Positions 17,346-39,061 of a stretch of DNA of 48,939 nucleotides are shown here, piece after piece. The stretch lies in assembly GCF_014696715.1 (NCBI RefSeq), contig NZ_JACJQO010000042.1, positions 1 through 48,939 on the forward strand, written 5' to 3'. The position numbers and the translations under genes are program-made. Below the pieces are notes generated by a model that saw nothing but the letters and a program-made list of their open reading frames with translations, did no database searches and had not been told where the DNA came from. The stretch is from Pseudanabaena sp. FACHB-2040. GTDB taxonomy: Bacteria > Cyanobacteriota > Cyanobacteriia > Phormidesmidales > Phormidesmidaceae. Each line of letters opens with the position of its first letter. The first letter of the stretch is position 1.

Positions 17346-17365
17346 CGGCCTGCTCGATCCGCACA

Positions 17366-24740: not shown

Positions 24741-24750
24741 AGTTGTAGGT

Positions 24751-24897: not shown

Positions 24898-24924
24898 ATT
24901 GGGTGAAATAAAGTTGCGGGGAAT

Positions 24925-25374: not shown

Positions 25375-25540
25375 TGGTCTTCTCCTGGCGAAAATCTTTG
25401 GTCAGTTCGTCAACAACTCGCGCCTGCTCTTGAAGCCAAACGGCGCGGTGGATGGCCTGCTGCTGGGTGAGTGTCGGATCAGCTTTCCGAAGCCGGTTGG
25501 CTATGGCCTGTGTTTGTCGGGAAACTTGAGGCTCGGTCAT
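25361..25540 (-). CDS. Small helical protein paralogous to the 43-aa gene at 34322
   Basis: 59 aa, ATG at 25540, overlapping the Rad52-like gene by 14 nt. It reads MTEPQVSRQTQAIANRLRKA followed by DPTLTQQQAIHRAVWL. The segment aligns with QSASPELTARQARRRAVWL of the gene at 34322-34453, so the two are related. It may be a small DNA-bound or protein-interacting helix. Not recognised as any named family. Confidence 0.5.
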   Translation of the reverse strand: MTEPQVSRQTQAIANRLRKADPTLTQQQAIHRAVWLQEQARVVDELTKDFRQEKTNETH

Positions 25541-25602
25541 TTTTCAATTGCTGTAGGGAGTGCTGGAGTGAGGCGAAGGGCGGGGCGGCCCGCCCGTGGG
25601 AT

Positions 25603-25998
25603 TTAGCAGTCAGTTAGCGGCTGCGGGTCGCGCTCGGTCCAGCTCCAGTTCACGGTGTTGGCAGACTGGGTAGCGTAGACAATTTGGCCTTGGCTGTCGC
25701 GGGGGCGTCGGCCCAGTTCGCGCAGGTAGCCCTCCAGATAGGGGCGGTTGAGGAATCGGATTGCATTGCCAAAGGCGGCATCGCAGCTGCCCCAGCAGCG
25801 CCACTCGGTCTCATCCATGACAGCGTCACGCTCGTCGATGGCGATGCGCAGGGTGACCTCCTGAGTGGAGGGTGCGATCGCATTGAGCCGGGCCAGCAGC
25901 TGCTCGATATCAGGCTCGGTGTCGCGGCCAGAGCCACGGTTAATGCCGGGAGCTGCGACGGCGGTAGAACTTGCGATCGCGGGAAATGTTGATACCAT
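25603..25998 (-). CDS. First gene of the leftward early operon, unassigned
   Basis: 131 aa from the ATG at 25998, with GGAG about 13 nt upstream. An in-frame GTG at 26097 would add 33 residues read through the leader hairpin, but its AGGAGG is only 1 nt away. Features: a serine/alanine start, EVTLRIAIDERDAVMDETEW, then RCWGSCDAAFGNAIRF and LEGYLRELGRRPRDSQG. A role next to annealing proteins, such as a host-takeover protein, is possible. No family recognised. Confidence 0.5.
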   Translation of the reverse strand: MVSTFPAIASSTAVAAPGINRGSGRDTEPDIEQLLARLNAIAPSTQEVTLRIAIDERDAVMDETEWRCWGSCDAAFGNAIRFLNRPYLEGYLRELGRRPRDSQGQIVYATQSANTVNWSWTERDPQPLTDC

Positions 25999-26030
25999 TT
26001 GAGTTGAAACTCCATCGATGTGGTTTTCGC

Positions 26031-26071
26031 AAAACCCCCGCCGACGCCCTGGAAAAGCTGGTGGGGGTTTT
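26031..26071 (-). terminator. Leader hairpin of the leftward early operon (possible attenuator)
   Basis: AAAACCCCCGCC (26031-26042) pairs with GGTGGGGGTTTT (26060-26071), a 12-bp stem with T runs on both strands. On the plus strand it is perfect with one G-U. On the minus strand there is one mismatch. It lies between the early promoter and the first gene, so it could terminate early transcripts unless read through, as an attenuator or antitermination target. Confidence 0.6.
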
Positions 26072-26102
26072 GTTGTGTGAGCGGTTAGGTGGCTCACACC
26101 TC

Positions 26103-26155
26103 CTATTGTCTACAATAGATTGTAGATTGTCAATGCCCTATAATAGGCTATTGAC
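26103..26155. promoter_or_regulatory. Operator region between divergent early genes
   Basis: CTATTGT-CT-ACAATAG (26103-26118) is a perfect palindrome. GTCAAT (26129-26134) and ATTGAC (26150-26155) form a larger dyad around CCTATAATAGG (26137-26147). The half-site CTATTG recurs, so several dimers of one regulator may bind. The sites overlap both promoters, as expected for a lysis-lysogeny switch. Confidence 0.65.
26105..26133 (-). promoter_or_regulatory. Leftward early promoter
   Basis: On the minus strand TTGACA (26133-26128) and GACAAT (26110-26105) are 17 bp apart. The -35 is consensus and the -10 matches 4 of 6. It is followed by AGGAGG and the leader hairpin. It is covered by the CTATTG operators. 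Confidence 0.6.
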
Positions 26156-26179
26156 TAATACTAGTTAACTGTTTATGAT
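26151..26179 (+). promoter_or_regulatory. Rightward promoter of the regulator gene
   Basis: TTGACT (26151-26156) and TATGAT (26174-26179) are separated by exactly 17 bp. The -35 overlaps the operator ATTGAC, which suits autoregulation. Confidence 0.75.
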
Positions 26180-26213
26180 TGCCTCACAAAGACTGATAAT
26201 TCGGGAGGCGATT

Positions 26214-26450
26214 ATGACGGCTGCGTTGATGGCGACTATTGATATTTCTGCGTTTTGGCCTGAGGCCAAGACAGTAAACGCTGTGTACGTGGAGTATGGG
26301 CCTAAATTTGGCCTCAATGCTTACACGCTCAAGAAGGCTAAAGAGGGGGATTTGGAGAGCGCAAAGATGGACAACCTGCTGGCTCTGCGACGGCTGTGCA
26401 GCGAATGGGCAGGGCGCGAAGTCTCTCTAGACGAAATTGTCAGGAGCTAG
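26214..26450 (+). CDS. Small Cro/CI-like regulator
   Basis: 78 aa from the ATG at 26214, preceded by GGGAGG. It contains TVNAVYVEYGPKFGLNAYTL followed by KKAKEGDLESAKMDNLLALR and CSEWAGREVSLDEIV: a compact helix-turn-helix like XRE family regulators, lacking any peptidase or dimerisation domain. It is divergent from the early operon and borders palindromic operators, so it is the best candidate for the phage switch protein. The small size resembles Cro more than CI. It could be assisted by another repressor. Confidence 0.65.
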   Translation: MTAALMATIDISAFWPEAKTVNAVYVEYGPKFGLNAYTLKKAKEGDLESAKMDNLLALRRLCSEWAGREVSLDEIVRS

Positions 26451-26452
26451 GC

Positions 26453-26554
26453 CGTGCTTAAGCACGACTCGGTGGGCCGCTCCGAGCTGCGCCCCTAATT
26501 TTTCCGCCGCATCGGAATGAGGCACTAGCCCCCGGCACTCGCTGGGGGCTAGTG
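26453..26554. other. Palindrome and hairpin downstream of the regulator
   Basis: CGTGCTTAAGCACG (26453-26466) is a perfect 14-bp palindrome; its core TGCTTAAGCACG recurs at 39552. CACTAGCCCCC (26523-26533) pairs perfectly with GGGGGCTAGTG (26544-26554), but no T tract follows on the plus strand. They insulate the early switch from gpD. Confidence 0.5.
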
Positions 26555-26559
26555 CTGCA

Positions 26560-26573
26560 GGGGCACTCTGAAG
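26560..26573 (+). promoter_or_regulatory. Late-type motif before gpD
   Basis: GGGGCACTCTGAAG lies 35 nt before the gpD start. It resembles GGGCACTCTGAGG at 15969. It restarts late transcription after the leftward early operon. Confidence 0.5.
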
Positions 26574-26594
26574 CCATCCCACACCGCTCCTGCT

Positions 26595-27617
26595 ATGCCC
26601 CGCGCCGCCGTCTTTAAGCTCACTTACCTGGGCACCGACATCACCAACGAGATCAACCCGCTGACCCTCCAGATTGCCTACACGGACAACCTGGAGGGGG
26701 AGGCCGATGACCTGGCCATTGCGCTGCTCAACTCTGACCTGCGGTGGCTCGATACGTGGTTGCCCGCCGAGGGTGATCGCGTGGCCTTGGAGCTGGGCTA
26801 TGAGGGTGAGGCGCGTCTAGGGCCGGTGCAGTTTGAGGTGGATGAGCCAGAGTGGTCGGGTATGCCTGACGGGTTCAAGTTGCAGGCGCAGGCGGTGCCG
26901 CTGACCTCCAGTTTGAGGGAGCGCCGCAGTCAGGCTTACGAGAACACGACCCTGCGTGCGATCGCAAGCCGAATTGCTGAAAAGCACGGCCTGGAGCTGG
27001 TTGGCGAGATTCCTAACATCAGGTTCAAGCGCCTGTCACAGTCGGAGCAGACCGATCTCGAGTTTTTGCGCGAGACGGCGGCTGAATACGGCCTGCTGTT
27101 CAAAATTGAGGGCACCACGCGCCTGGTATTTTTTCAAGAGAGCGACCTGGAGGCGGCAGCGCCGGTGCTCACCGTCAAGCGCACTGAGATGGCCAACTAC
27201 CGGCTCAGACGGAGCGCGTCGGGCACCTACAAGGCGGCCACCGTGAGCTACCAGAACGCTGAGAGCGGCGAGTTCATCGAGGTCACGATTGACCTCAACG
27301 GAGCCGAGGTGCCCAAGCCCAAGGATGGGCAGGAGGGTGCGATCGCGAGTGAGTCGATCCTGCGTATCCGCGAACGGGTGGAGAGCCGGGCCCAGGCTCG
27401 ATTAAAAGCGGTGGCTGCCCTCAAGCGGGCCAACAGTGCGCGGGTGGAGCTGGACTTTGAGGCTGAGGGCAATGTGCTCTTTGCGGCGGGCAGCTGCTTC
27501 ACCTTGGAGGGTTTCAAACGGCTCGACGGCAAGTATCTGCTCAGCCGGGTGCGGCACCAGCTCGATAAGGGCCGAGGCTATCGGTGCAGCGTGGAGGCGC
27601 GGAAAGTCGAGGGCTGA
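26595..27617 (+). CDS. D: Baseplate hub protein gpD
   Basis: 340 aa. Typical of P2 gpD/VgrG-like hub: N-terminal ITNEINPLTLQIAYTDNLEG and EADDLAIALLNSDLRW, then AENTTLRAIASRIAE-like segment (YENTTLRAIASRIAEKHGLE), the aromatic stretch SQSEQTDLEFLRETAAEYGL, and the C-terminal FTLEGFKRLDGKYLLSRVRH. It forms the trimer linking tube and spike. It is separated from gpX by the leftward operon, an unusual arrangement. Confidence 0.9.
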   Translation: MPRAAVFKLTYLGTDITNEINPLTLQIAYTDNLEGEADDLAIALLNSDLRWLDTWLPAEGDRVALELGYEGEARLGPVQFEVDEPEWSGMPDGFKLQAQAVPLTSSLRERRSQAYENTTLRAIASRIAEKHGLELVGEIPNIRFKRLSQSEQTDLEFLRETAAEYGLLFKIEGTTRLVFFQESDLEAAAPVLTVKRTEMANYRLRRSASGTYKAATVSYQNAESGEFIEVTIDLNGAEVPKPKDGQEGAIASESILRIRERVESRAQARLKAVAALKRANSARVELDFEAEGNVLFAAGSCFTLEGFKRLDGKYLLSRVRHQLDKGRGYRCSVEARKVEG

Positions 27618-27623
27618 GCCTCA

Positions 27624-27636
27624 GGGAACTTTAAAG
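27624..27636 (+). promoter_or_regulatory. Late-type motif before FHA-EAL operon
   Basis: GGGAACTTTAAAG lies 54 nt before the chosen ATG of the FHA gene (or 15 nt before a GTG at 27639). It is the most divergent copy, sharing GGGAAC with the others. Confidence 0.4.
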
Positions 27637-27677
27637 GTGTGGCAAGTGTGCCATCGCTCCATCCACCCTCAGCACCA

Positions 27678-28262
27678 ATGGCCAGACTTGCCTGTTATTT
27701 CGTCGCTTCGACCCGCCCGCGCATTCTCGATACGGATCAGGCTCCAGAAGGTAAGTCCCCCTGGACTGTGGGCCGGTCTCCTGAGAGCCAAATCACCTTC
27801 CACAAACCAACCGTCTCCAAAGCTCATGCCCTAATTCGCTACTTTGAAGAGGTAAGGGCTTGGCAGCTTTTGGATTGTGGCAGCCTCAACGGCACGTTCG
27901 TTAATGGCGAGCGGATCGCCCCTTCTCAATGGCGAAACCTGATGGAAGGGGACACAATCGACTTTGGCACCATTGCAGCTCGCGTTCGCATCTCTTTTGA
28001 TGATGATGAAACCCTGCATACCATCGCTGAAGACGAGACGCCAACCTGCAATTTGAAGCCGGCCCTAACTCCGGCTGTTGGTCCAAAGCCAGAGCCAACT
28101 GTTCAACAGGGTGCCGGAGACAAAAGCAAGATGCCGTGGGCGTTGGCTGCGGATGCTCTCGACTGGCTGCAGTCGCCCATCTCTCTGTCGGGAGCAATGT
28201 ACCGACTCCTCGTGTTACTGGCTTTCCTGACGGCTATGGTCGTAGTCGTAATCCACAAATGA
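27678..28262 (+). CDS. FHA-domain membrane protein
   Basis: 194 aa from the ATG at 27678; a GTG at 27639 would add 13 residues. The FHA domain fills residues ~5-110 with all key residues: G32-R33 (VGRSPE), S47-x-x-H50 (TVSKAH) and N71-G-T-F-V-N76-G (LNGTFVNG). FHA binds phospho-threonine. A Pro-rich linker (residues 115-150) follows and a single C-terminal hydrophobic helix at about 174-192 (YRLLVLLAFLTAMVVVVI), so it is probably tail-anchored. The stop overlaps the start of the EAL gene (ATGA). In a prophage this pairing suggests a regulator that links a host Ser/Thr kinase to the EAL enzyme; this link is inferred. Confidence 0.8.
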   Translation: MARLACYFVASTRPRILDTDQAPEGKSPWTVGRSPESQITFHKPTVSKAHALIRYFEEVRAWQLLDCGSLNGTFVNGERIAPSQWRNLMEGDTIDFGTIAARVRISFDDDETLHTIAEDETPTCNLKPALTPAVGPKPEPTVQQGAGDKSKMPWALAADALDWLQSPISLSGAMYRLLVLLAFLTAMVVVVIHK

Positions 28263-29344
28263 TTTCAACTCTGGCTGCCGCGATCGCGCTGTGCCCTACT
28301 GCCGCTGCTGCCGTCAATAGCAGGGGGGTGATCTGGCTGTGCAATGAGCCCTTTGCGGCGCTGCTGGGGCACTCCAGAAGCGAAATTGAAGGGCAGGTAT
28401 GTTTGAGCGAACTGGCCCTCCTAGGGGAGCAGGCAGCGGCCCACAAGCAGCATCAGGCGCTGATGGCGGGCAGCGTGGAGAGCTATGAGCTGGACGGCCA
28501 CTGCTGCCGCCCAGACGGACAAAGTTTTTGGATGCATCTGGTGGTGGGGTGCTTCGACCATAGCTACTCGCTTGTGTTTGCCCACAGCATCACCCGGCAT
28601 CAGGAGGTGTCGGCCTTGGAAGTGCTTAAGGATGAGCTGTTGGAGGCAATCCGCTTGCGGCAGTTCGTCCTGTGGTATCAACCCATTGTCCACCTGGCTA
28701 CCGGCAGGATTTTGGCTCAGGAGGCGCTGGTGCGGTGGCAACACCCTAACGGCCTGCGCTACCCAAATTACTTTTTGCCCTTTGCCAGGCACCTGGGGCT
28801 GGAGACCTGGATCTGCCGTATCGTCTTGGGGCTGGCCGCAAAGCAGCTGCGGGCTTGGTCTGATACTGGCGAAACCTGGGCTGTGGCTGTCAATATTGAG
28901 CCCTCAACACTGGAGCTGGTGGCCTTTGAGGAGATGGTCGAGTTTGCAATCGCGCGCTACGGTGCCCCCGCAGACAGGCTGTGGCTAGAGATTGTGGAGA
29001 CTCAAAGTCTCGACATTGAGTCTCTGGTCGATAAGTTGAGGCGGTTGAGCAAGCGCCACCTGTTGGCCATCGACGATTTTGGTGCGGGCTATTCCAATCT
29101 GGGAGCAGTCACCCGCTATCCAGTGCAGGCACTCAAAATCGACAAGCACCTGATCAAAGGGGTGGACCACGATCCGGGCCTGCAAACGGTGGTGGGCACA
29201 GTTATTGTCATGGCTCACGAGTTGGGCCTAAAAGTCGTCGCTGAAGGTATTGAAACCGAGGCGGAGCTGCAGTGGCTTAAGACTTACGGCTGCGATTTCG
29301 GGCAAGGATTCTGGCTGGGCAGACCTGCGGCGGCGAAGCAGTAG
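28259..29344 (+). CDS. PAS-EAL cyclic-di-GMP phosphodiesterase
   Basis: 361 aa, coupled to the FHA gene by ATGA. A PAS-like sensor fills residues ~15-105 (FAALLGHSRSEIEGQ). The EAL domain (about 120-355) has the full catalytic set: E155 (QEALVRW), N212, E244 (LWLEIVET), D272-D273 (IDDFGAGYSNL), K293 (LKIDKH), E329/E332 (AEGIETE) and Q349 (GQGFWLG). It should hydrolyse c-di-GMP to pGpG. No GGDEF domain is present. It could push the host away from sessile behaviour, alter motility or control lysogeny. Its level may depend on the late-type signal before the operon. Confidence 0.88.
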   Translation: MISTLAAAIALCPTAAAAVNSRGVIWLCNEPFAALLGHSRSEIEGQVCLSELALLGEQAAAHKQHQALMAGSVESYELDGHCCRPDGQSFWMHLVVGCFDHSYSLVFAHSITRHQEVSALEVLKDELLEAIRLRQFVLWYQPIVHLATGRILAQEALVRWQHPNGLRYPNYFLPFARHLGLETWICRIVLGLAAKQLRAWSDTGETWAVAVNIEPSTLELVAFEEMVEFAIARYGAPADRLWLEIVETQSLDIESLVDKLRRLSKRHLLAIDDFGAGYSNLGAVTRYPVQALKIDKHLIKGVDHDPGLQTVVGTVIVMAHELGLKVVAEGIETEAELQWLKTYGCDFGQGFWLGRPAAAKQ

Positions 29345-29459
29345 GCAGCAAATCTACGCATGGCTCTGGCGGGCTGACTTAGAAATTCAGTAGTTGTCTC
29401 AATGGCACGGTCTAAAGCGCTACCGATGATAGGTTTAGCCACCTCGCCCCCGCCTCAGT

Positions 29460-30230
29460 ATGCGCCCGTCTACTCCCGCCGCTACGAACTGCCTCGAAGC
29501 TTTGATTGCTTACAAGCAAAACCCTTCAACCGAAGGCCGAAATAAATTGGTACGGCTCAATGCAGGCCTAGTGCGAAAAGTTGCACACCGCATCCTACAG
29601 CAGTGCAATGAGCCCTATGAAGACCTGGAGCAGATTGGTTACCTGGGCCTGATCCGGGCCATCGAGCGCTTCGATCCGACTCAGGGCTGCGCTTTCAGCT
29701 CGTTTGCGGTGCCCTACATTCGGGGGGACATGCTGCACTACCTGCGCGATCGCAGCGGCACCGTCAAAATCCCCCGCCGCTGGCAGGACTTGCAGAAGGA
29801 GGCGCAGAAACTGCAGCCGCAGCTGCAGCGGGTGCTGGGGCGCACGGCTGATGAGACTGAGCTGGCCCAGGCGCTGGGTGTGCCGGTGAGCGAGTGGCAG
29901 GAGGCTAAGTTCTCGAACAAAAATCGTCACCTCCTAAGCCTTGATGCCAGGGTAGGCGGACAGGATGATTCTGCGATTACGCTGGGAGAAACTCTCCCGG
30001 ATGCGAACTACCAAGTAATGCAAAAACTTGAGGAAGATCGGGCGCAACTGCAGCGAGCTATGCAGGGCTTGGAAGAGGGCACGCGCACTGTGATTGAGTT
30101 TGTGTTTTACAACGGTCTATCTCGAAAAGAGGTAGCTAAAAAAATTGGTGTTAGCCCTATGACGGTCAGCCGCAGACTTCAGGAAGGCCTGCAGCAAATG
30201 GCTTCATGCCTGGGCGCTGCTAAGGCATGA
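29460..30230 (+). CDS. Group-3 (SigF/SigB-like) sigma factor
   Basis: 256 aa. Region 2 spans residues ~25-105: NAGLVRKVAHRILQQCNEPY, then EDLEQIGYLGLIRAIERFDP, CAFSSFAVPYIRGDMLHYLR and RSGTVKIPRRWQDL, the cyanobacterial SigF pattern. Region 3 follows, then region 4 near the C-terminus with LSRKEVAKKIGVSPMTVSRR as the -35 reader. There is no region 1.1. A phage-borne group-3 sigma factor can redirect host RNA polymerase; the GGGAAC motif before the late genes is the obvious candidate target, since the -10 of SigB/SigF-type promoters often contains GGG. That link is inferred. Confidence 0.88.
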   Translation: MRPSTPAATNCLEALIAYKQNPSTEGRNKLVRLNAGLVRKVAHRILQQCNEPYEDLEQIGYLGLIRAIERFDPTQGCAFSSFAVPYIRGDMLHYLRDRSGTVKIPRRWQDLQKEAQKLQPQLQRVLGRTADETELAQALGVPVSEWQEAKFSNKNRHLLSLDARVGGQDDSAITLGETLPDANYQVMQKLEEDRAQLQRAMQGLEEGTRTVIEFVFYNGLSRKEVAKKIGVSPMTVSRRLQEGLQQMASCLGAAKA

Positions 30231-30305
30231 AAAAACCGCCCAGGAGAGGCGGCGTGGTGCGGTTTGTATGGGTTTCTCCTACTAAGAACCATGTGTGCCA
30301 GTCGG

Positions 30306-30457
30306 CTCAGGATGCCGCTTAAGCCAATTCAGGATGCTCAGGACGTTTCGCTCAGGATTTTCAGGATAGGACTCTCAGGACGGCTCAGGATGCCCATCCT
30401 GTCGATAATCCTGAGCCGTCCTGAGGGGTTTTCGGATTCCATCCTGAGTATCCTGAG
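30306..30457. repeat. Array of twelve TCAGGA octamers with reversed polarity
   Basis: Seven YTCAGGAY copies run forward (30306, 30328, 30337, 30351, 30360, 30374, 30384) and five run inverted (30396, 30408, 30418, 30441, 30450). The centre has an 18-bp perfect dyad, CTCAGGACGGCTCAGGAT (30374-30391) with its reverse complement at 30408-30425, spaced by 16 bp and then GGGGTTTT. It lies between convergent genes. It may be a binding array, a translocation guide, a centromere or a terminator. Confidence 0.75.
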
Positions 30458-30465
30458 CATTTTGC

Positions 30466-32229
30466 CTAGGCTGTGCCACTTACGGCATAGAGGGGGGCAC
30501 CATTCTCAAATCTGCTCAGAATCATTCCCTCTTCAGCCATTCGGTTCAAGACCGCTTTAGCCTCCTCAGCAGAGAGTTTTTTTAGGTCTGTGATCGCACT
30601 CTTGATTTGGTGCCCAGGGACAAATCCGTCTTGTCGTTCTAGGTAAGCGACTACCTTGGCTTCTACCGATTCAGATGTCTGCTGTTGGAAGGCATTCTCT
30701 AGCCGCTGCTGGTCAGTTTGGGGTGCGGCTCCATAGGTGGGTTCAGCATCTTGAGAGGGGCTCGGGTAGGCCATACGACCGGGTACAAGGCAGGGTTTTA
30801 CATCTCCGTCGAACTGAGGGAATGAGCACAGCAACGGCTCACCTTTGACGGCTGCCAGCTGATAGAAACCGCTATCAAGTTTCTTCAATTCTGCCACCTG
30901 CGGCCCGGTCAGAGAATCGACGTGCTTCGAGTACCATGCCGGCATGTGGGAGAAGCCATCGGCGCACCGCTCCGATCCGCAGATGACAGACCAAAGGTTT
31001 TGCAAACTGGCGGCAGAGATGCCCTTGATATCGCTGCCGTTTTGGGTCTGCGACATCAGGGCCAGCATTGCCCCTTGGGCGGCTCCGGTCGCCAGCAGGA
31101 GCTTAATCAGGCTGCTGAACTGTTTGGTCACTTTCTTGTCTTCGTCGGTTTCGGCCTGTGACTCTAGCAGGTCAGTGACGGCCAGGGCCTCGTCTAGCAC
31201 CAGCCAGTGAGTCTCCTTGCACCGGCCATCGAGAATGGCGGCAATCATCGGCTGCACCTCTGCCAGGACAGCAGCGACATCGGCATGGATGTTGAATGCC
31301 CGCAACCGGTAGCCCTTCCAGTGGTGGGGCACGCGATCGCTGTCCTTCAAGGTCAGGTAGGTGACATGCTGAGCGTCTTTCAGCAGGTGCAGCAGCGTGT
31401 TGGTCTTGCCGCCCCTAGACGGTGCCAGCAGCTTCAGGTGCGTCTCTGGGCGCAGCGACAGCACTCCGCGAGGAATGGCAGTTCTGACGGCTGAACTGTC
31501 GTCACAGGGCTGAACCGACTCAGCTGGGACTGCGATCGCACCTAGCCGGGTAGTCGGCCCAATGTTGCCCCCGGTCGGCTGCGGCTCGGGTTCAGGCGTA
31601 GAGTCTGCCGGCAGGGCTGCTTGCTGCTGTGCCCCTGCCCGTAGCCGCTTGAAATCATCCTCACTGGCTAGGACGTACTCAGCCACTTCGGCAGCATCAA
31701 CGGCCATCAGCAGCTCGGGGGTGTGCTTGATGTGTTGCCCGTACAGCTCATGGAACCGGCGCTTTGCCACGCTGTAGGCAAAGTAGCGGTGCTCGTCACT
31801 GGGGAGCTGAGCTAGGGCATGGGCCAGCCTGTTGCCGCAGGTGAGGATCAAGGCGTACTCAGCCTTTTGGGCGGCGCTCATGTAGCTGTAGTCTTCGAGC
31901 TCTGGCAACTCCATCTGAGCACCAGAAGCAGCCCCTAGCATCTCGGCGGTACCGGTATCGCTGAAGGGGATGAGCATCACCCGGCCAGTCTTCTTGGCCT
32001 GGCCCATCACCCCAGCTATGTAGGTCACTACACCGATGCCGATCGGGATGGTGGCCAGCCCGCCAGTCGTGATGGCAGCCAGGCCCCCTAGCGCTAGGCT
32101 GGTCAGCCCCAAGGTCTTGCTCAGATTCCCGGCGGCGCGCTCGGCCTGGGCGTCTTCCACCAGTGATGTCAGACGGCGCTTGAGGACGATCTGAGCGTTT
32201 GAAACTTGCTGCTGAATCTCGGTGCTCAT
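30466..32229 (-). CDS. Membrane-anchored FtsK/HerA-like ATPase
   Basis: 587 aa. Two hydrophobic segments lie at about residues 40-75 (SLALGGLAAITTGGL). Residues ~255-480 form a P-loop ATPase with Walker A at 269-276 (APSRGGKT), Walker B WLVLDEA (342-348) and a polar sensor region MLALMSQTQNGSD. The C-terminal ~65 residues look like a winged helix (EAKVVAYLERQDGFVPGH and KAVLNRMAEEGMILSRFE), as in the FtsK gamma domain. It is ATGA-coupled to the gene before it and ends next to the octamer array. This layout suggests a DNA pump, as in FtsK or conjugation coupling proteins, not a phage packaging motor. A defence role is also possible. Confidence 0.65.
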   Translation of the reverse strand: MSTEIQQQVSNAQIVLKRRLTSLVEDAQAERAAGNLSKTLGLTSLALGGLAAITTGGLATIPIGIGVVTYIAGVMGQAKKTGRVMLIPFSDTGTAEMLGAASGAQMELPELEDYSYMSAAQKAEYALILTCGNRLAHALAQLPSDEHRYFAYSVAKRRFHELYGQHIKHTPELLMAVDAAEVAEYVLASEDDFKRLRAGAQQQAALPADSTPEPEPQPTGGNIGPTTRLGAIAVPAESVQPCDDSSAVRTAIPRGVLSLRPETHLKLLAPSRGGKTNTLLHLLKDAQHVTYLTLKDSDRVPHHWKGYRLRAFNIHADVAAVLAEVQPMIAAILDGRCKETHWLVLDEALAVTDLLESQAETDEDKKVTKQFSSLIKLLLATGAAQGAMLALMSQTQNGSDIKGISAASLQNLWSVICGSERCADGFSHMPAWYSKHVDSLTGPQVAELKKLDSGFYQLAAVKGEPLLCSFPQFDGDVKPCLVPGRMAYPSPSQDAEPTYGAAPQTDQQRLENAFQQQTSESVEAKVVAYLERQDGFVPGHQIKSAITDLKKLSAEEAKAVLNRMAEEGMILSRFENGAPLYAVSGTA

Positions 32230-33104
32230 GCCTGCACCTCCTCATCTTCCAGGTCGGTCAGCCCGGTCAATTTGTAACAGCTCTCGAAGCCGAACACCTC
32301 GATCACCCCGTTGAGCAGCAGGAACACAACGGTGCTGCCGCTGTGCTCAAAAGTGACCAGGAAGCAGCCGATTTCAAAAACGTAGCTGGTCACAATCACC
32401 AGGCCATCGAAGATGTAGTTGTCTACCTCGGCGTACTGAAATTCAGCGTTTCGGATCTTTGCGATCGCTAGAGCTCTGGGGCTGAGGTCATCTACCCGAT
32501 ATTTGCGAACCCGGTCAAGCCTGGCTTTACGAACTTTGATGCTGACCGAGCGGATTGCTTTGGCCTGAAGGATGCCGCTGACCGCAGCTCCCACTAGCGC
32601 GATGTAGAAGTTGGGGTCAGCCCAGACGAGGTAATTGTCGAAGCTGGTGTTGCCGAAAGCTCGGTAGCCCGGCACCCAGCCGAAAGCGAAGTTGGAGCTT
32701 AGGCGGACCAGCTTCAGGGGACTGGGCAGCACTCGGCCCAGCTGAGCCCCATCAGAGACGCCTAGCTTCGGAACGAATCTGACGTCTTCGGCGACCCGGC
32801 CAGAGCCGTAAATCTCGCTGGTGCCGGCGTTGAGCAGCACGAGCAGACTCTCGGTGGTGAGGCCGTAGGCATAGACCATGCCGGCACTGAACAGCAGCAC
32901 CTTGCCGGTGATTTCAATCTTGCCTCTGCCCTTGGCTTCCTCGGGTTCTGTCAGCCAGGCCAGGCCGCGAGCAATCCAAACGATGGGGCGGCCCAGCTGA
33001 GCCAGCAGGGGCGTTTTACTAGAGGCTTTAGGCTTCCAGTTGTTGTCCCTGGTAGCGGTGTCTGCAGGTGTGGTGGTGTCTGCGGGAGGATTAGCTGATT
33101 TCAT
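32226..33104 (-). CDS. Multi-pass membrane protein of the ATPase operon
   Basis: 292 aa. Hydrophobic segments: one near 69-92 (VLLFSAGMVYAYGL), one near 163-185 (FYIALVGAAVSGILQ) and two near 232-275 (IFDGLVIVTSYVFEIG; STVVFLLLNGVIEVFG). A basic cytoplasmic loop (RSVSIKVRKARLDRVRKYRV) lies between. The N-terminus is Thr/Asp-rich and disordered. Its stop overlaps the ATPase start. Likely a membrane partner or anchor of the ATPase. No family was recognised. Confidence 0.6.
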   Translation of the reverse strand: MKSANPPADTTTPADTATRDNNWKPKASSKTPLLAQLGRPIVWIARGLAWLTEPEEAKGRGKIEITGKVLLFSAGMVYAYGLTTESLLVLLNAGTSEIYGSGRVAEDVRFVPKLGVSDGAQLGRVLPSPLKLVRLSSNFAFGWVPGYRAFGNTSFDNYLVWADPNFYIALVGAAVSGILQAKAIRSVSIKVRKARLDRVRKYRVDDLSPRALAIAKIRNAEFQYAEVDNYIFDGLVIVTSYVFEIGCFLVTFEHSGSTVVFLLLNGVIEVFGFESCYKLTGLTDLEDEEVQA

Positions 33105-33119
33105 CGGTTGAGTCTCCAG

Positions 33120-33626
33120 TTACTTGAGTTGGCCAAACGTGCACATCTTTCCGGCGCTCATGGCGGGCTCGGTGTCGATGGTGATGACCGCGCCATCCTT
33201 AACGGCTGCGACCAAGTGGCCGGATTCCGCATAGAGGGGATACCAGCGCCCCAGCGCGGGGTTGAAAATCGGTGCAGTGGGGTTGAGGCCCCAGTTGATG
33301 AGGTCTTGATCGACGGTGCCGGGGTTGTAGCGAAATCGGTTGAGCCTGACCCCGCAGGTGTGGTCGAGCACGTTGGCCCGCTGGTAGGCGTCTGAGAGTT
33401 GCGCTCGCTGCTGAATCTGGGCTAGCTCGGCCTCGGTTTTTTCCTGAGCTCGCAGCTGAGAGCGCTGCACTGAAACCCGCGTCATTGTCTCGCGCTCGCT
33501 CATGTTGTCCCAGACTGCCAGCGTGTTCTGAGTTCCCAGCAGGCCCATACACGCAGAAAACCCAGCGAGGACTGGCAGGCCCCACCGGCTAACGGCTTTG
33601 TGTTTATCGGTTGGAATGAAATTCAT
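33120..33626 (-). CDS. Single-pass membrane protein of the ATPase operon
   Basis: 168 aa from the ATG at 33626; an upstream in-frame start at 33764 would overlap the next gene. One hydrophobic segment lies at about residues 16-33 (LPVLAGFSACMGLLG), followed by a coiled-coil-like part (QRSQLRAQEKTEAELAQIQQ) and a C-terminal domain with two cysteines (DHTCGVRLNRFRYN; AMSAGKMCTFGQ). It may be an extracytoplasmic or periplasmic partner. It lies 15 nt before the multi-pass gene. Function not recognised. Confidence 0.55.
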   Translation of the reverse strand: MNFIPTDKHKAVSRWGLPVLAGFSACMGLLGTQNTLAVWDNMSERETMTRVSVQRSQLRAQEKTEAELAQIQQRAQLSDAYQRANVLDHTCGVRLNRFRYNPGTVDQDLINWGLNPTAPIFNPALGRWYPLYAESGHLVAAVKDGAVITIDTEPAMSAGKMCTFGQLK

Positions 33627-33650
33627 GGCTGTCCCTGAATCACGGCAAAG

Positions 33651-33674
33651 GCCCCTACCGACAGCAGTAGGGGC
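33651..33674 (-). terminator. Hairpin between small gene and membrane gene
   Basis: GCCCCTAC (33651-33658) pairs perfectly with GTAGGGGC (33667-33674). Read leftward, it is followed by CTTTGCC, a weak U tract. It may be a partial terminator that lowers expression of the ATPase operon. Confidence 0.45.
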
Positions 33675-33681
33675 GAGGAAG

Positions 33682-33996
33682 CTAGACGCTTGCGTAGCAG
33701 AGGCTTTCTGCGATCGCATTGACCAAGGTGACTGCTTCCCCCCAACTCGTGAGTTCTTCGTCAAGCTGCTGCACCAGAGTCAGCAGTTCGCTGTCGGCGG
33801 TGGGGTAAGCGTCTAGCAGGGCAATGTCTAGGCGCTCTGAGATGCCGTCCTGCTGGACAGCTGATGCGGCATACGCTAGGGCGGCCATCAGGTGCAGGCG
33901 AGTCTCTACGGTGAGGTGCTGCAGGGTGCTGCCGTAACGCTGCTGTAGGGCCTGCACCGAAGGCAGATCGAGGTAATAGGTCAGGCAGTTAGCCAT
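33682..33996 (-). CDS. Unassigned protein downstream of leader copy 1
   Basis: 104 aa, ATG at 33996. The leader at 33994-34074 ends at this start and supplies AAGGA about 10 nt upstream. The protein is helical, with TYYLDLPSVQALQQRYGSTL and HLMAALAYAASAVQQDGIS. No domain recognised. Shares its leader with the gene at 34071-34247, so the two may be co-regulated. Confidence 0.5.
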   Translation of the reverse strand: MANCLTYYLDLPSVQALQQRYGSTLQHLTVETRLHLMAALAYAASAVQQDGISERLDIALLDAYPTADSELLTLVQQLDEELTSWGEAVTLVNAIAESLCYASV

Positions 33997-34074
33997 AATT
34001 GGGTTAAGTCCTTACGTAGTTTGCGTGGGATGAAGGCCCCCGAAAGTGGCGTGGAAACTGGTTTCGGGGGTTAT
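33994..34074 (-). repeat. 81-bp leader repeat, copy 1
   Basis: Identical to 34245-34325 except for one base (cttacgtAgt vs cttacgtGgt). Each copy begins at the stop codon of the upstream gene and ends at the ATG of the downstream one. Each contains a 9-bp hairpin (CCCCCGAAA, 34037-34045, with TTTCGGGGG, 34062-34070). Confidence 0.9.
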
Positions 34075-34247
34075 CTAGTCATTTTTTTCGGCTGCAGCCG
34101 TTGGGGGAGACTTCCAGGCGGGGCAACCTCAGCGATTTCCGTTGCCAGTTTCTTAAGCAGGTCTGGCCGGTCGGCCAGCTGCCCGATGTAGTTTTTGGCT
34201 GTCTCGAAGGCTGCTTCTTGAAACGATTGGTCGAAGTTGCTATTCAT
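34071..34247 (-). CDS. Small protein, 58 aa, between the two leader repeats
   Basis: ATG at 34247 directly after leader copy 2, stop at 34071 inside copy 1. The product starts MNSNFDQSFQEAAFETAKNY and goes on IGQLADRPDLLKKLATEIAE. Helical, with a basic tail (LPQRLQPKKMTR). Not recognised. The leader hairpin and AAGGA ribosome site support translation. Confidence 0.5.
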   Translation of the reverse strand: MNSNFDQSFQEAAFETAKNYIGQLADRPDLLKKLATEIAEVAPPGSLPQRLQPKKMTR

Positions 34248-34325
34248 AATTGGGTTAAGTCCTTACGTGGTTTGCGTGGGATGAAGGCCCCCGAAAGTGG
34301 CGTGGAAACTGGTTTCGGGGGTTAT
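34245..34325 (-). repeat. 81-bp leader repeat, copy 2
   Basis: Second copy of the intercistronic leader, with hairpin arms 34288-34296 and 34313-34321. It starts at the stop codon of the 43-aa gene and ends at the ATG at 34247. Confidence 0.9.
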
Positions 34326-34453
34326 TCTGTGATCTGCTGTTGCAGGAGCCAGACAGCACGGCGGCGGGCTTGTCTAGCGGTCAGCTCTGGGCTGGCGGAC
34401 TGGATGCGAGCGGCCAGAGCTTCGATCGTCGGTCGGTCAGCTTTTTGGGTCAT
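34322..34453 (-). CDS. Small helical protein, 43 aa, paralogue of 25361-25540
   Basis: ATG at 34453, stop at 34322. It reads MTQKADRPTIEALAARIQSA followed by SPELTARQARRRAVWLLQQQ. The central part matches the 59-aa early protein (LTQQQAIHRAVWL). Two small paralogues in separate operons of one element suggest a recurrent phage module. Function unknown. Confidence 0.5.
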   Translation of the reverse strand: MTQKADRPTIEALAARIQSASPELTARQARRRAVWLLQQQITE

Positions 34454-34505
34454 AGGTCATCGCTTTGATTTTGAGAATTTACGATCGCACTCAACGGCCA
34501 GAGCG

Positions 34506-35225
34506 CTACTGCTGCAGACGTTTGCGGATATCCTTGCGGGCCTGCAACCTGCCCTCAATCTCGGCGAGCTGACGGGCCATCTCCTTCTCGTAGGCCCGTT
34601 CCCTGATTAGTTCCAACTCGGCCTCTCCGGCCTCCACCTCGCCCAAATCATCGGCATCTATCTCAGCTACGAGGGCGTCGAGCTTGTTTTTGGCGCTGAG
34701 AACGATTGCCCCTCGCTCCTTCTCAAGCTCCTCCTTGCGAGTTTTCCAGTTTTCGGCAACGGACTCTTTAGGAATGGTGGTAACAGCCTCAGGCAGTGCT
34801 CCCACAACCTCTGCGAGACCGTGAATCCAAGCGGCCCCGGTTAGCTGGTCTGCCCTCTGAAAATACGCCTGCATAAGCGACTTCCCTAGCTCAGTAAACT
34901 TGTCATCCGCCTTCAACAGGTCGCTTGAGACGACCTGAATCAGAGCTTTATAAGCTTTCCTTACGGCTGTATCGCTAACGCCAAACTCACGGGCCAGCTC
35001 GCGGGCCGAAAATGCCCCGTCTGCTTTGTCGTGAGTCGAAAATAGGCTCCCAATCTCGCTCCAGTAGTTAATCGGTTCGACCTGGTTCGCAGCAGGTTCG
35101 GGGGTGGTTTGCTCTTGGTTCTCATTCGGTTCGATATTGCTGGACTTCTCGGTTTGTTGCTCGGTTCCTTCGTCAATCAGCATCTGTTTTTTCCTTGTTT
35201 TGGCAAAGTTTTTGGCGCGGTTCAT
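34506..35225 (-). CDS. HTH / coiled-coil DNA-binding protein
   Basis: 239 aa, first gene of the leftward ATPase operon. The N-terminal ~55 residues are polar (Glu/Gln/Asn/Pro). A clear helix-turn-helix lies near residues 70-97 (FSARELAREFGVSDTAVRKA). The C-terminal ~90 residues are charged coiled coil (ENWKTRKEELEKERGAIVLS and RERAYEKEMARQLAEIEGRL). This HTH-plus-coil plan is typical of plasmid KfrA/TubR-like or other accessory partition regulators. Repeats of GGTTCG around its own start suggest self-regulation. The partition role is inferred. Confidence 0.55.
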   Translation of the reverse strand: MNRAKNFAKTRKKQMLIDEGTEQQTEKSSNIEPNENQEQTTPEPAANQVEPINYWSEIGSLFSTHDKADGAFSARELAREFGVSDTAVRKAYKALIQVVSSDLLKADDKFTELGKSLMQAYFQRADQLTGAAWIHGLAEVVGALPEAVTTIPKESVAENWKTRKEELEKERGAIVLSAKNKLDALVAEIDADDLGEVEAGEAELELIRERAYEKEMARQLAEIEGRLQARKDIRKRLQQ

Positions 35226-35380
35226 GAGCGGTTCGCGTGAAGAGTTTTGTCAGTTCGCAAACCAGGTTCGCACATTCTCAATATACCGCATGGGTAGGGC
35301 ATGGGTGGAGCACTCATGCCGAATTAGTCACAATCCTATAACTTACGGGTACTGCATGGGTGCTTGATTGCGTAGGATTG
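35074..35380. promoter_or_regulatory. Divergent control region with GGTTCG and GCATGGGT repeats
   Basis: GGTTCG occurs at 35074, 35084, 35095, 35128, 35230 and 35265, with AGTTCG at 35252; some are 10-11 bp apart and some lie in the 5' end of the HTH gene. GCATGGGTR occurs at 35288, 35299 and 35354, with a related inverted copy (one mismatch) at 35311-35319. CAATCCTA (35331-35338) and TAGGATTG (35373-35380) form an inverted repeat. These fit operators for the divergent genes. Confidence 0.5.
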
Positions 35381-35402
35381 GGCTAGTGATTAGTGAGCAG
35401 CC

Positions 35403-35702
35403 ATGCCAGATGAACAGCCAATGAAGGATTGCGATTGGAGCAAAGTCACGCTCCCAAGGCCCTCCAAAGCTCAATCAAGGCCTTCCATTGGTGAGCTGAG
35501 TGACCTGGACTGGGCCAAGCTGATGGTGGTCTCCAAGCTCATCCACAAGTCAATTGCGTCAGTGCTGCAAACTGCCGTGATCACTTATCTCAACCGCAAC
35601 TGGCATAACCACCTGGAGCGGCTGCACATAGTCGCTAACCGCGAGAACATCAGCATCGAAGAGGCTTTTGAGAAAATCGTTAAGGAAGAATTGGAGCCAT
35701 GA
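35403..35702 (+). CDS. Small unassigned protein, possibly DNA-binding
   Basis: 99 aa. A flexible basic start is followed by LSDLDWAKLMVVSKLIHKSI and ASVLQTAVITYLNRNW, then RENISIEEAFEKIVKEE. The second part could be helical with an RHH-like look, though the strand is unclear. It is divergent from the HTH/coiled-coil gene and coupled to the next gene by ATGA. No family recognised. Confidence 0.5.
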   Translation: MPDEQPMKDCDWSKVTLPRPSKAQSRPSIGELSDLDWAKLMVVSKLIHKSIASVLQTAVITYLNRNWHNHLERLHIVANRENISIEEAFEKIVKEELEP

Positions 35703-36163
35703 CCCAAGTTTGTGTTTGCGATCGCTGCCGTGTGCCGGCAACTGAGGAAACGATGTCACTCACCGGCTGGTGGCACCTGGTCACCGAGTCTAAAAAGAGC
35801 CGCCCCGCAAAGCCTAAAGGCCAACCGCGCCTCAAAGCTGATATTTGCCAGCCGTGCATTGAGGAAATGGGACTGCGCACGAATCTTGAGCCAACTCGGG
35901 GAGAGCTGTACCTACGCTGGATGAAGGAACACCCAGGTCGCTCAGCAATAGAAGGGCTGCGCAAGACTGCTCTGGCCGATGCCTACATTGAAGATACGTT
36001 TTGCGATCGCTGTGAAGAGATTTGCTCTGAGCAGTACGTGCGGCTGGAGAGCACCTGGCTGACTGAGGCTCAGGAAAAGGTCTGCATAGACTTGTGCCCT
36101 AGCTGCGCTGCGGCAGTAGAGATGCCCGTTGCGCCGCTGGAGAGCCAAGCGCTAAGTGTGTGA
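35699..36163 (+). CDS. Double zinc-ribbon-like protein
   Basis: 154 aa, ATGA-coupled to the gene before it. Two Cys pairs stand at the N-terminus (CVCDRC ... DICQPCIEEMG) and two later (FCDRCEEICSEQY ... DLCPSCAAAV), so two zinc sites are likely. No enzyme motif. Such proteins often act as regulators or as parts of complexes. It ends before a strong terminator. Confidence 0.5.
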   Translation: MTQVCVCDRCRVPATEETMSLTGWWHLVTESKKSRPAKPKGQPRLKADICQPCIEEMGLRTNLEPTRGELYLRWMKEHPGRSAIEGLRKTALADAYIEDTFCDRCEEICSEQYVRLESTWLTEAQEKVCIDLCPSCAAAVEMPVAPLESQALSV

Positions 36164-36194
36164 TCTAGGGCAAACTGTGGACAGGAACAAACGC

Positions 36195-36227
36195 AAAAGC
36201 CCCCTGGCCTTAGGCCGGGGGGCTTTT
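36195..36227. terminator. Bidirectional terminator
   Basis: AAAAGCCCCCTGGCC pairs with GGCCGGGGGGCTTTT (15-bp stem with one G-U, 3-nt loop), with T runs on both sides. It serves the rightward zinc-ribbon gene and the leftward membrane gene. Confidence 0.9.
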
Positions 36228-36243
36228 TGTTGAAAACTTGGTC

Positions 36244-36978
36244 TCAGCCTGCGGGTTTGACTACCAGCATTACAAAGCCCAGATCCTCGGAAAAGCTTAG
36301 GGTGTAGGTTTTACCGTCATGAGCAGTTTGAATTTCCGTGTCGGAAGTTGAGGCAAGAGTGTCCAAGCCATTTCGTAGCCAGTCTTTGCCGCCGTCCCAT
36401 CCCGGTGAGGCAAGATGCATAAAACCCGTGAGGTGAACAGAGTTTTCGGCTAGAGCATAGTCATCGTCATTCGGTAAACCCGCAATCATGGTTGCCTGCG
36501 TTAGCTCGTTATCAGGGCCGATTAACTCAACATGAACTAGGTTGTTTTCAGAGGTTCCCTGCACCCTAGGTTGGCCACCAACGGGAGAGCTTTGCTCAAA
36601 AACAAAGCCAATTTCAGGCTTTTCAAATATGCTCTGAAAGCCAGCCCTGGAGAGGCCGATACCGGCTGGTGCCTCTAGTGCCGGTGCAGGCTCTGGTGCT
36701 GCAGCCACTTGCTGCACGGGCGGGGCAGCAGCCACCTCAACAGCGGCAGGATCTGTGGCAATGAGGCTGACGAGGGGCGCGGAGCAGAAAATCAAGCTTC
36801 TAATGAGCAGGCGCTTGGGCACGGAGTATTTGCCTAAAAGCCTTCCGGTAGGCGGTGCGACGGAGGTGGCCATGGTGAGCATTGCTAGGGCTATGCCGAT
36901 CTGGCTAACGCTGACAAGAGCGCAGAGGCCGAACAGGCCAGTGAAGGCCCAGCCTGCGCGGGTCGTGAAGGTTTTCAT
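36244..36978 (-). CDS. Membrane protein with Ala/Pro linker and outer domain
   Basis: 244 aa, single-gene unit. Two hydrophobic segments lie near residues 10-35 (TGLFGLCALVSVSQIGIALA) and 55-73 (RLLIRSLIFCSAPLVSLIA). A flexible Ala/Pro/Glu linker (78-103) leads to a C-terminal domain from about 105 with GFQSIFEKPEIGFVFEQ and LTGFMHLASPGWDGGKDWLR. Stand-alone membrane proteins of prophages often mediate superinfection exclusion or lysogenic conversion. That role is only suggested by context. No family recognised. Confidence 0.5.
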   Translation of the reverse strand: MKTFTTRAGWAFTGLFGLCALVSVSQIGIALAMLTMATSVAPPTGRLLGKYSVPKRLLIRSLIFCSAPLVSLIATDPAAVEVAAAPPVQQVAAAPEPAPALEAPAGIGLSRAGFQSIFEKPEIGFVFEQSSPVGGQPRVQGTSENNLVHVELIGPDNELTQATMIAGLPNDDDYALAENSVHLTGFMHLASPGWDGGKDWLRNGLDTLASTSDTEIQTAHDGKTYTLSFSEDLGFVMLVVKPAG

Positions 36979-37091
36979 GAGCTAGGAACAGAAACGCTTA
37001 GCTCAGAATTCCCGGCAGCTTGAGCCGATTCCCGTTGGATGTTATGAGGCAGATATGATTTGATGCTCAAAGGCTAACCTGAGGGCTGCAA

Positions 37092-37823
37092 ATGATGCTA
37101 ACCGAGTACCTGGAGCAGTTTGACCGGATCGAGGGGTGGTTGCATAAGCCGACAGCCATCATGACCTTTAGGCTATGCGAGTTTCAAAGGCACATGCGGT
37201 TCGCTGGGAACCTGGTGGAGATTGGGACTTACCACGGTCGCTACTTTTTTGCGTTTTCCGGTGCAGCGGAAAAGGGAGAGATCTGCATCGCGGTTGACCT
37301 GTTTGAGGACCAGGCCCGCAATGAGGACTTGCCGGGCTATGACGAGGTGGGCTCAACGGGCATCCATTCCTTGACCCAGGACATTTTCAGGGACCATGCC
37401 AGAAATCTGCTGCCAGAGCACAATGTGCTGATAGTTCAGGCCTCCTCGCTCGACATCAGCCCACGCCACCTAATGCCCAACGGGCTACAGGCCAGGTTCT
37501 TTTCCATAGACGGTGGCCACTCTGCTACGGTCTTTAAGCACGACCTGCTGCTGGCTGAGCAGGTCATTGCAGAGCACGGCATCATCGCAATCGATGACAT
37601 CCTCAACCCCCAGTGGCCTGGCATCATCACCGAGGTGATCCGTTACCTCGACCGGGGAGAGCCACAGCTCAAGCCGATTGCGTTTCTGCCCAACAAACTG
37701 CTGCTGGGTAAGGGAAATTTCGTGGAGCTGTATAAGAGCTTCCTCCGGGTCAAGTTCCCGGAGGCCCTAGAGCGCAAGGATGCAGAGCTTTCAACCTTCT
37801 TGGTTGACCAGTACCGAGGCTGA
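37092..37823 (+). CDS. SAM-dependent methyltransferase-like protein (Methyltransf_24 type)
   Basis: 243 aa. The Rossmann motif I is visible as NLVEIGTYHGRYFFAFSGAA, followed by motif II ICIAVDLFEDQ and a later FFSIDGGHSATVFKHDLLLA then GIIAIDDILNP. This set (E-I-G-x-Y-x-G, D-G-x-H, D-D) is typical of small-molecule or glycan O-methyltransferases of the Methyltransf_24 group, not of DNA methylases. In a prophage it could change a surface sugar to block further infection. This is inferred. It stands alone with AT-rich sequence and a TATGAT box upstream. Confidence 0.72.
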   Translation: MMLTEYLEQFDRIEGWLHKPTAIMTFRLCEFQRHMRFAGNLVEIGTYHGRYFFAFSGAAEKGEICIAVDLFEDQARNEDLPGYDEVGSTGIHSLTQDIFRDHARNLLPEHNVLIVQASSLDISPRHLMPNGLQARFFSIDGGHSATVFKHDLLLAEQVIAEHGIIAIDDILNPQWPGIITEVIRYLDRGEPQLKPIAFLPNKLLLGKGNFVELYKSFLRVKFPEALERKDAELSTFLVDQYRG

Positions 37824-37931
37824 TGCAGTTTCGAGGGCTTTTACCTACGAAAGTCTCAATTTGAGCGCCCTAGCCCTGATTTCTGGTTCAGAATAAAACC
37901 GTTAGGGCAAATGTTTGCATAACGGGACTTC

Positions 37932-38588
37932 ATGGTTTCTACGCCTCTGCAACACACGCTGATCAAAGAGCGGATTCTTGCGAACCTTAAGGCTGAATAC
38001 CCCTTTATCGTCGATTGCTCAATACAGCTAGCAGCCAACGGATGGCAACTGGGCATCCGCACGGATCCAATGCCAGATGGCTTTTTTGATGAGATGGGCA
38101 ACGTGCTAGCGATCGCAGAGCGTGTTGCAGAATTTCGCACCCTGAAACTCAATGACAATCAGCCTGTTGAGGCAGAGGGGCTACGGGCCTGGTGCGAGCA
38201 ACTTTTCACGGACGACTCAGGGGAGGGTGACCTCAAGGAGCTGTGCAGATTCCTGATGAAGGATGCCAGACAGCTCCGCAGCATCATCACCATCAGCCCC
38301 AGCGGGGTTTACCTCAGCTTCATCCCACAGCAGGGGCAAAGGTCCAAGGTAGCCCCCAATGAGCTTTTGGGAAAAACCATTGCTCAGGTAATTGGCCAGA
38401 CGGCCCATGACGAAATTATCAGCGCCGTCAGACGGTCTCAAAGCACTGGCCAGGACCAGTTCTGCGTGTATGAGGCGGTGTTTGGCGACGGGGAGAGGCA
38501 GCGCTACACCGCCAGAGTCTCAGCTAAGCCAGATGGGTCACTTGCTTGGCTTGCCGTTACCCGTCTTGAATCCATTTCTCACGACTAG
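37932..38588 (+). CDS. PAS-domain protein
   Basis: 218 aa. The N-terminal half is unassigned. The C-terminal half (residues ~115-215) has a PAS pattern: LRSIITISPSGVYLSFIPQQ, LGKTIAQVIGQTAHDEIISA, FCVYEAVFGDGERQRYTARV and DGSLAWLAVTRLES. It has no output domain, so it may sense a ligand and act by binding another protein. It is the second PAS protein in this element, after the PAS-EAL enzyme. Its end overlaps the convergent gene by 51 bp. Confidence 0.65.
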   Translation: MVSTPLQHTLIKERILANLKAEYPFIVDCSIQLAANGWQLGIRTDPMPDGFFDEMGNVLAIAERVAEFRTLKLNDNQPVEAEGLRAWCEQLFTDDSGEGDLKELCRFLMKDARQLRSIITISPSGVYLSFIPQQGQRSKVAPNELLGKTIAQVIGQTAHDEIISAVRRSQSTGQDQFCVYEAVFGDGERQRYTARVSAKPDGSLAWLAVTRLESISHD

Positions 38589-38915: not shown

Positions 38916-38925
38916 ACATCCATGA

Positions 38926-39049: not shown

Positions 39050-39061
39050 GGAGTGAAGAAA

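Follow-up and report, generated by a model that had tools for sequence, protein, structure and literature searches.

What is the function of an ATPase gene whose 3' end lies against a dense array of short repeats that reverse their polarity? The question is raised by a contig of Pseudanabaena sp. FACHB-2040, which was analysed over its full length of 48,939 nucleotides (nt) and is called the window (one whole contig of a host assembly of 6.28 Mb in 44 contigs). Three minus-strand genes of the window encode an ATPase, P0001, and two partners, P0002 and P0003, and a TCAGGA array follows the ATPase gene. We propose, with a probability of about 0.6, that array and genes belong together as a single module: a pump for double-stranded DNA (dsDNA), anchored in the membrane and addressed by sequence, and perhaps serving transfer between cells. 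In such a module, the N-terminal part of P0001 and the two membrane partners would anchor an ATPase of FtsK/HerA fold, and its C-terminal winged helix would bind the 8-9 bp repeats at the end of its own gene. The motor would load on the DNA of its own element only, and would drive it across a septum or other membrane, or into an adjacent cell. The features concerned are the following (aa, amino acids).

30307..30456: polarity-reversing array, seven TCAGGA on the plus strand, then four on the minus strand; unit about CTCAGGAYG
30374-30391 and 30408-30425: arms of a perfect dyad at the polarity turn, 18 bp, 100%, 16-nt loop
30466..32229, minus strand: ATPase P0001 of 587 aa, with a membrane/helical part at the N-terminus (1-240), a core of FtsK/HerA type (250-480) and a winged helix at the C-terminus (about 520-585)
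30469..30675, minus strand: C-terminal winged helix from the structure model, proposed array reader; residues 538, 544 and 554 covary with the motif in relatives
32226..33104, minus strand: P0002, membrane protein, 292 aa, overlapping the ATPase start; three hydrophobic segments; relative in locus L025 (31%)
33120..33626, minus strand: P0003, probable membrane-anchored protein, 168 aa; relative in locus L025 (27%)

The array holds 11 exact TCAGGA copies within 150 bp, 9 bp beyond the ATPase stop codon, between a sigma-factor gene (end 30230) and the ATPase gene (end 30466, minus strand). Plus-strand copies are found at 30307, 30329, 30338, 30352, 30361, 30375 and 30385, and minus-strand copies at 30409, 30419, 30442 and 30451; in the orientation of the ATPase gene, four forward copies are followed by seven inverted ones. 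A sequence-only reading of this DNA had counted seven forward and five inverted copies around an 18-bp dyad. The dyad and the seven forward copies were recovered, whereas four inverted copies are exact and the fifth, at about 30397 in the dyad loop, has one mismatch. TCAGGA is invariant in 11 of 11 units, preceded by C in 9 of 11 and followed in all 11 by T or C, then by G in 7 of 11. This flanking conservation indicates a repeat unit of approximately 8-9 bp, CTCAGGAYG. The density of 11 copies per 300 bp compares with a maximum of 4 in 200 dinucleotide shuffles, and the array strand folds with -76.9 kcal/mol (z -6.6). A pattern of spaced TCAGGA triplets is restricted, in the host assembly, to this array. 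However, the same pattern is present in 32 of 63 family genomes, many with tandem GTCAGGA heptamers, so the TCAGGA cluster by itself is little proof. The case for the array rests on its position and on the diversity of motifs, rather than on TCAGGA clustering.

P0001 contains Walker A (APSRGGKTN, residue 269) and Walker B (WLVLDE, residue 342) motifs, as the sequence-only reading had stated. In the structure model, the core and the winged helix are confident (pLDDT about 91 for the latter, which had been described as a winged-helix-like end) and the N-terminal part is poor. A fold search with residues 249-479 returned TcpA (Z 15.6), HerA (14.4), EssC (14.0) and FtsK (13.3), with RecA-like entries ranking lower (Z about 10.7). 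TcpA, the top structural match, aligned with an rmsd of 5.9 over 215 residues and 13% identity. As modelled, the core has an FtsK/HerA/TcpA fold, in agreement with the FtsK-like ATPase first suspected. Several membrane segments had been expected in P0001; its N-terminal part has a single one (45-63) above a simple hydropathy threshold. Of the two proposed membrane partners, P0002 is of this kind, whereas P0003 has no segment above the threshold and several relatives at its operon place have one. Neither Pfam nor PHROG gave a family for P0001, P0002 or P0003 at E 0.1, and phmmer and profile searches of PDB sequences gave nothing better than E 0.095. PF01580 (FtsK_SpoIIIE) matched the relatives L028 and L032 weakly, below the cut-off (0.025 and 0.01). 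HerA defence complexes also figure among the fold matches of P0001, which would suit a HerA-like ATPase acting in defence or conflict. This is extremely improbable: PADLOC models at E 0.01 matched none of the three proteins, no nuclease, SIR2 or DUF4297 partner was seen, and to our knowledge HerA defence does not include a self-matched repeat array.

Relatives of the ATPase were found by profile searches in 16 of 95 and 17 of 388 cyanobacterial genomes, nearly all from the host's family; named genome records are Leptolyngbya, Nodosilinea, Halomicronema and Tildeniella. Used as sole query, P0001 had no hit among plasmids or phages and matched, among viral contigs, just the record of the window itself; a first scan of genome contigs yielded no relative. 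Four more viral contigs carry a relative together with portal, terminase, tail-fibre or baseplate genes, and three of the four have the same ATPase by score. More distant relatives are located on complete plasmids of Nostoc, Tolypothrix, Calothrix, Scytonema and others. ATPase queries L122, L041 and L040 found some of these plasmid relatives, whereas L105 found none; three ATPase queries matched 45, 45 and 36 plasmid records. Twenty Nostocales loci were analysed, from 40 listed among 90 record matches (some records twice). The operon layout recurs: first comes a small protein with no more than one membrane segment, next a membrane protein with several segments, and last the ATPase. First-gene relatives group in 17 of 35 loci, and second-gene relatives in 13 and 7 (two families).

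The plasmid and phage relatives bear a compact array of differing short motif, at the 3' end of the gene or before the operon. In most loci, the strongest hexamer cluster lies where the ATPase gene ends, and its motif varies from locus to locus: GTAGGTG, GTGGGCG, TGTCTCG, TGTCTTG, GTCTTTG, TGTCAGTG, TGTCGGG, CATCCGG, CGTTCGG, CCTTGAA, CTAGAT, GGTGTCTG or CCGGAA. Of 54 ATPase gene ends, 34 have at least five copies of one hexamer within 265 bp; the Leptolyngbya-type and viral loci contribute 24 (of 34) and the Nostocales plasmids 10 (of 20). Among the other genes of these loci, 13 of 458 ends reach that number. Four of these 13 control positives are the module's own arrays, directly before the operon, in L027, L109, L110 and L116. 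Indeed, six Leptolyngbya-type loci at first appeared to lack an array; it is clear before the operon in these four and weaker in L025 and L115. The count of 54 leaves out L111 and L112 (scores equal to L110), L120, L124 and the fragment L123|142-666, the last three of which had been scored in an earlier shuffle scan, with no array found. A polarity turn is present in many of the relatives' arrays.

Do the winged helices read these arrays? Sequence comparison indicates that elements exchange membrane part, core and winged helix. The membrane part of P0001 and the partners are common to L025, L040 and L041, and its core is common to L022-L024. L022 combines a P0001-like core with the winged helix and GTAGGTG array of the L034-L039 group, and L033 and L037 have the core of that group with other winged helices and other arrays. 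Motif similarity was compared between the 41 genes passing the array call. At every level of core similarity, alike winged helices went with alike arrays: 2.18 (n=53) against 0.89 (n=30) for unlike ones at a core similarity of at least 0.5, 2.21 (n=24) against 0.94 (n=43) at 0.2-0.5, and 1.77 (n=16) against 1.05 (n=646) below 0.2.

Fixed residue differences between close groups fall mostly in or beside the same domain. GTAGG (seven genes) and GTGGG (four genes) ATPases have two fixed differences in 308 gapless columns, 238 of them variable. Both, N to G and T to V, are in the winged helix, at columns corresponding to P0001 residues 544 and 554, where helix 2 ends and helix 3 begins. TGTCTC (three) and TGTCTT (two) ATPases have two fixed differences among 98 variable columns, R to L at P0001 residue 538, beside the same helix, and L/I near the N-terminus; this split rests on five related genes. 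Pairing of Asn with adenine and of Arg with C:G would be chemically sensible. The groups are impure: four GTAGG arrays each hold one GTGGGT, L117 has six TGTCTC and three TGTCTT, and L118 has six TGTCTT and three TGTCTC. The pair CTGTGAG/CTGTGAC was unusable for covariation because of 44 fixed differences in 204 variable columns.

Since array similarity tracks the winged helices and most of the fixed differences fall in or beside them, each ATPase very probably reads its own array. Together with the enrichment at gene ends, this bears out the earlier assignment of the array to the ATPase. Comparison between relatives thus delineates a module, a motif linked to it that changes, and a covariation of motif and residues in the winged helix. 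The arrays might otherwise be iterons, operators or terminators of something else, lying at the gene end by chance. The TCAGGA array hairpin is very stable and stands between two convergent genes, and iterons are usually short direct and inverted repeats of this type. However, the polarity reversal alone would make any such array fold, some arrays precede the operon, unlike a terminator, and the motif varies together with the ATPase winged helix, so this explanation is very improbable.

The pump itself, an ATP-driven movement of dsDNA as suggested by the modelled fold, is quite likely. Its purpose is less firm: to judge by the anatomy, which resembles that of TraB-clt and the Spd proteins in Streptomyces, movement into or spread among neighbouring cells has about an even chance. 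It is the best single purpose, with segregation at the septum as main rival. The carriers bear on this choice. The genera of all matched plasmid relatives are, we take it, filamentous, and a control cyanobacterial plasmid protein additionally matches plasmids of Synechococcus, Synechocystis and Acaryochloris, presumably unicellular. The relaxase families PF03432 and PF08751 matched in 0 of 12 module contigs of five genomes, contigs which may be incomplete and in which other relaxase families were not searched, and VirB4 (PF03135) matched in none of the five genomes. A 23.5-kb Tildeniella contig (L133/L134) with a 127-bp end overlap bears the module with ParA and a terminase small subunit and is possibly a phage-plasmid or satellite; Pfam covered 10 of the 28 open reading frames (ORFs) of the Tildeniella plasmid.

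Several observations weigh against the proposal. The enrichment at gene ends (Fisher 2e-28) is nominal only, since the genes are related and not independent; 10 of the 20 Nostocales loci do not reach five hexamer copies, and 13 of 54 loci failed a stricter array call. Elsewhere in the host genome, L124, a 335-aa relative of the ATPase N-terminal region, has no array at its end. Alike motifs are also predicted by alike cores (partial 0.21, compared with 0.27 for the C-terminus), and TCAGGA itself lacks a second member for covariation. The array adjoins the code for the winged helix, so their joint inheritance is partly plain linkage; nevertheless, a whole array of about 10 copies shifts in step with a reader residue, which linkage alone is hard-pressed to explain. 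As to transfer, plasmids with a relative were typed mobilizable in 31 of 45, 31 of 45 and 27 of 36 cases and conjugative in 7 of 45 and 4 of 36, and Nostocales plasmids with a relative often have a relaxase. Thus, the module is not necessarily their transfer route. In addition, a ParM gene lies upstream of the module in several Nostocales plasmids.

These last points lead to the main rival, in which an addressed motor at the division septum draws copies of the element into the daughters, for maintenance rather than transfer. The evidence for a membrane-bound addressed pump applies equally here. The ParM genes, the ParA gene of the circular Tildeniella plasmid and the occurrence of modules on plasmids typed conjugative all favor it, and a self-supplied motor would fill a gap in the hosts, FtsK_gamma (PF09397) matching in 0 of 3 cyanobacterial genomes tested (G000, G025, G038) against 8 of 14 for a control. 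On the other hand, an integrated prophage, as the window is, already segregates with the chromosome, no ParA or ParM match was found among the window proteins scanned, and the apparent restriction to filamentous hosts better suits spread along the filament. Segregation is judged unlikely, and transfer between cells is preferred.

The sequence-only reading had placed the locus with FtsK, KOPS and Xer recombination. FtsK/SpoIIIE with KOPS/SRS (XerCD-dif) and the module do have in common the core fold, a terminal winged helix and octamer-like sites. The specific claims were not supported. FtsK_gamma, the reader then expected, gave no match among the C-termini of five module members with E up to 10. 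TCAGGA occurs 42 times in the whole window against 27.0 expected; the 31 copies outside the array (12 plus and 8 minus on the left, 4 plus and 7 minus on the right; p = 0.27) are near background and without polarity. The module thus has one compact array and no replicon-wide polarity to guide a motor, and its reader and motif change together between elements, unlike FtsK and KOPS. A recombinase had been noted near 3937 and indeed lies there (3829-4809), and a short integrase gene follows the ATPase by about 450-550 bp in the Nostocales plasmids L148, L151 and L157, as would be useful if the motor used the array to unite tyrosine recombinase sites in FtsK-Xer-like dimer resolution. However, the window recombinase is 25 kb from the array, and another one lies beside the attachment (att) core. 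With the array being so compact and FtsK_gamma giving no match in the five C-termini, dimer resolution is very improbable.

TraB is a member of the PF01580 (FtsK_SpoIIIE) family. It has been described as one protein, FtsK-like, which uses 8-bp repeats to assemble at clt and transfers the plasmid in double-stranded form (PMC4170104). In pWTY27, clt comprises 16 bp within traA plus 159 bp beyond it, and TraA has two membrane segments; in pSVH1, helix alpha-3 of the winged helix reads the repeats (PMC3583192). Spd membrane proteins accompany TraB (PMC12857230). The module, with its membrane-anchored FtsK/HerA-type motor and a winged helix proposed to bind an array in cis, is thus closest to TraB-clt, not to FtsK-KOPS-Xer. 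Both have an FtsK-type motor core and filamentous hosts. On the TraB side, there are two N-terminal membrane segments, a winged helix reading 7-8 bp repeats, direct and inverted repeats with clt running over the end of a tra gene, and a motif differing between plasmids. To these correspond the N-terminal membrane part, the predicted reader, and the variable arrays at the motor-gene end. Small membrane proteins adjoin both motor genes (Spd, and P0002/P0003-type proteins), a likeness of position and membrane nature. The module differs in belonging to another phylum, in the absence of a Pfam FtsK_SpoIIIE match for P0001, in riding on a tailed prophage in the window, in its longer, polarity-reversing arrays, some of them before the operon, and in the swapping of membrane part, core and winged helix. 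TraB is reported to transfer a dsDNA plasmid, whereas the module is known here from sequence and model. In its proposed working principle the module is like TraB-clt, from which it is set apart by its protein family, its hosts, the prophage as carrier, the form of the arrays and the exchange of parts.

TcpA, the conjugation coupling protein of pCW3, works with a relaxase and parts of a type IV secretion system. It resembles the module as best structural match and as a membrane-anchored protein, and differs by the low identity and by those partners, the two relaxase families giving no match on the module contigs and VirB4 none in the five genomes tested. A dsDNA substrate has been suggested for TcpA (PMC12857230). 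Searches of open-access literature that combined TraB, FtsK or HerA with cyanobacteria and their plasmids, prophages or phages listed no title on such a module.

The window represents a tailed prophage sited beside a tRNA-His gene. Contractile-tail phage proteins were recognised (baseplate, terminase, portal, scaffold, major head, sheath, tape measure and hub), and megablast of 1-20000 and 20001-40000 against phages gave zero matches. The 45 bp common to both window ends are the 3' end of the tRNA-His(gtg) gene, and another host contig terminates in the same gene followed by window bases 46-113. The element is thus joined to this gene in the assembly, which lends no support to the phage-plasmid first imagined. 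Searches of the host assembly returned no contig with the right-hand junction; with a junction seen on one side only, a free circular form may also exist. The two recombinase genes are the following.

47654-48760: tyrosine recombinase, starting 135 bp from the right-hand att core (PHROG integrase 2e-12; Pfam below cut-off)
3829-4809: second tyrosine recombinase, different from the former and away from the att core (Pfam)

A single prophage thus holds two distinct tyrosine recombinases, the att core being adjoined only by 47654-48760. Among the head genes, 12008-12766 encodes a Lys/Ala-rich repetitive protein with AKAKATKAK repeats and histone H1-like composition, and its DNA is the densest hexamer cluster of the window. 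Directly before the array, at 27639-30230, genes for an FHA-domain protein, a PAS-EAL protein and a sigma-70-type factor are adjacent in this tailed prophage. A direct repeat of 106 bp (88% identical, 33994-34099 and 34245-34350) precedes two short reading frames of the minus-strand cluster. Finally, 39527-42877 encodes a DUF3854 protein, a plasmid-like replication gene in a prophage, with relatives on the module-bearing contigs L118, L119, L124 and L126.

The N/G and R/L residue differences make the address-reading claim testable with one protein and four oligonucleotides. The relatives would provide a natural series of motor-address pairs for deciphering how winged helices encode DNA recognition, and cyanobacterial genetics would gain orthogonal addresses. 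According to a survey, 88% of 424 cyanobacterial plasmids are predicted to be immobile under a model of relaxase and type IV secretion, and a 2010 study is cited there as guessing at an unknown mechanism of plasmid mobility (PMC8600333). A self-addressed dsDNA pump on many such plasmids would be a direct candidate for their movement. If so, TraB-like logic would extend from mycelial actinomycetes to filamentous cyanobacteria. Tentatively, and at somewhat less than even odds, this may be an undescribed and widespread form of dsDNA transfer in filamentous cyanobacteria, in which plasmids and prophages would carry a motor that knows their private octamer address and drives the circle through the septa to adjacent cells with neither relaxase nor type IV secretion, address and reader being exchanged as a cassette. 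A tailed prophage would then gain a second, particle-free way of spreading along the filament.

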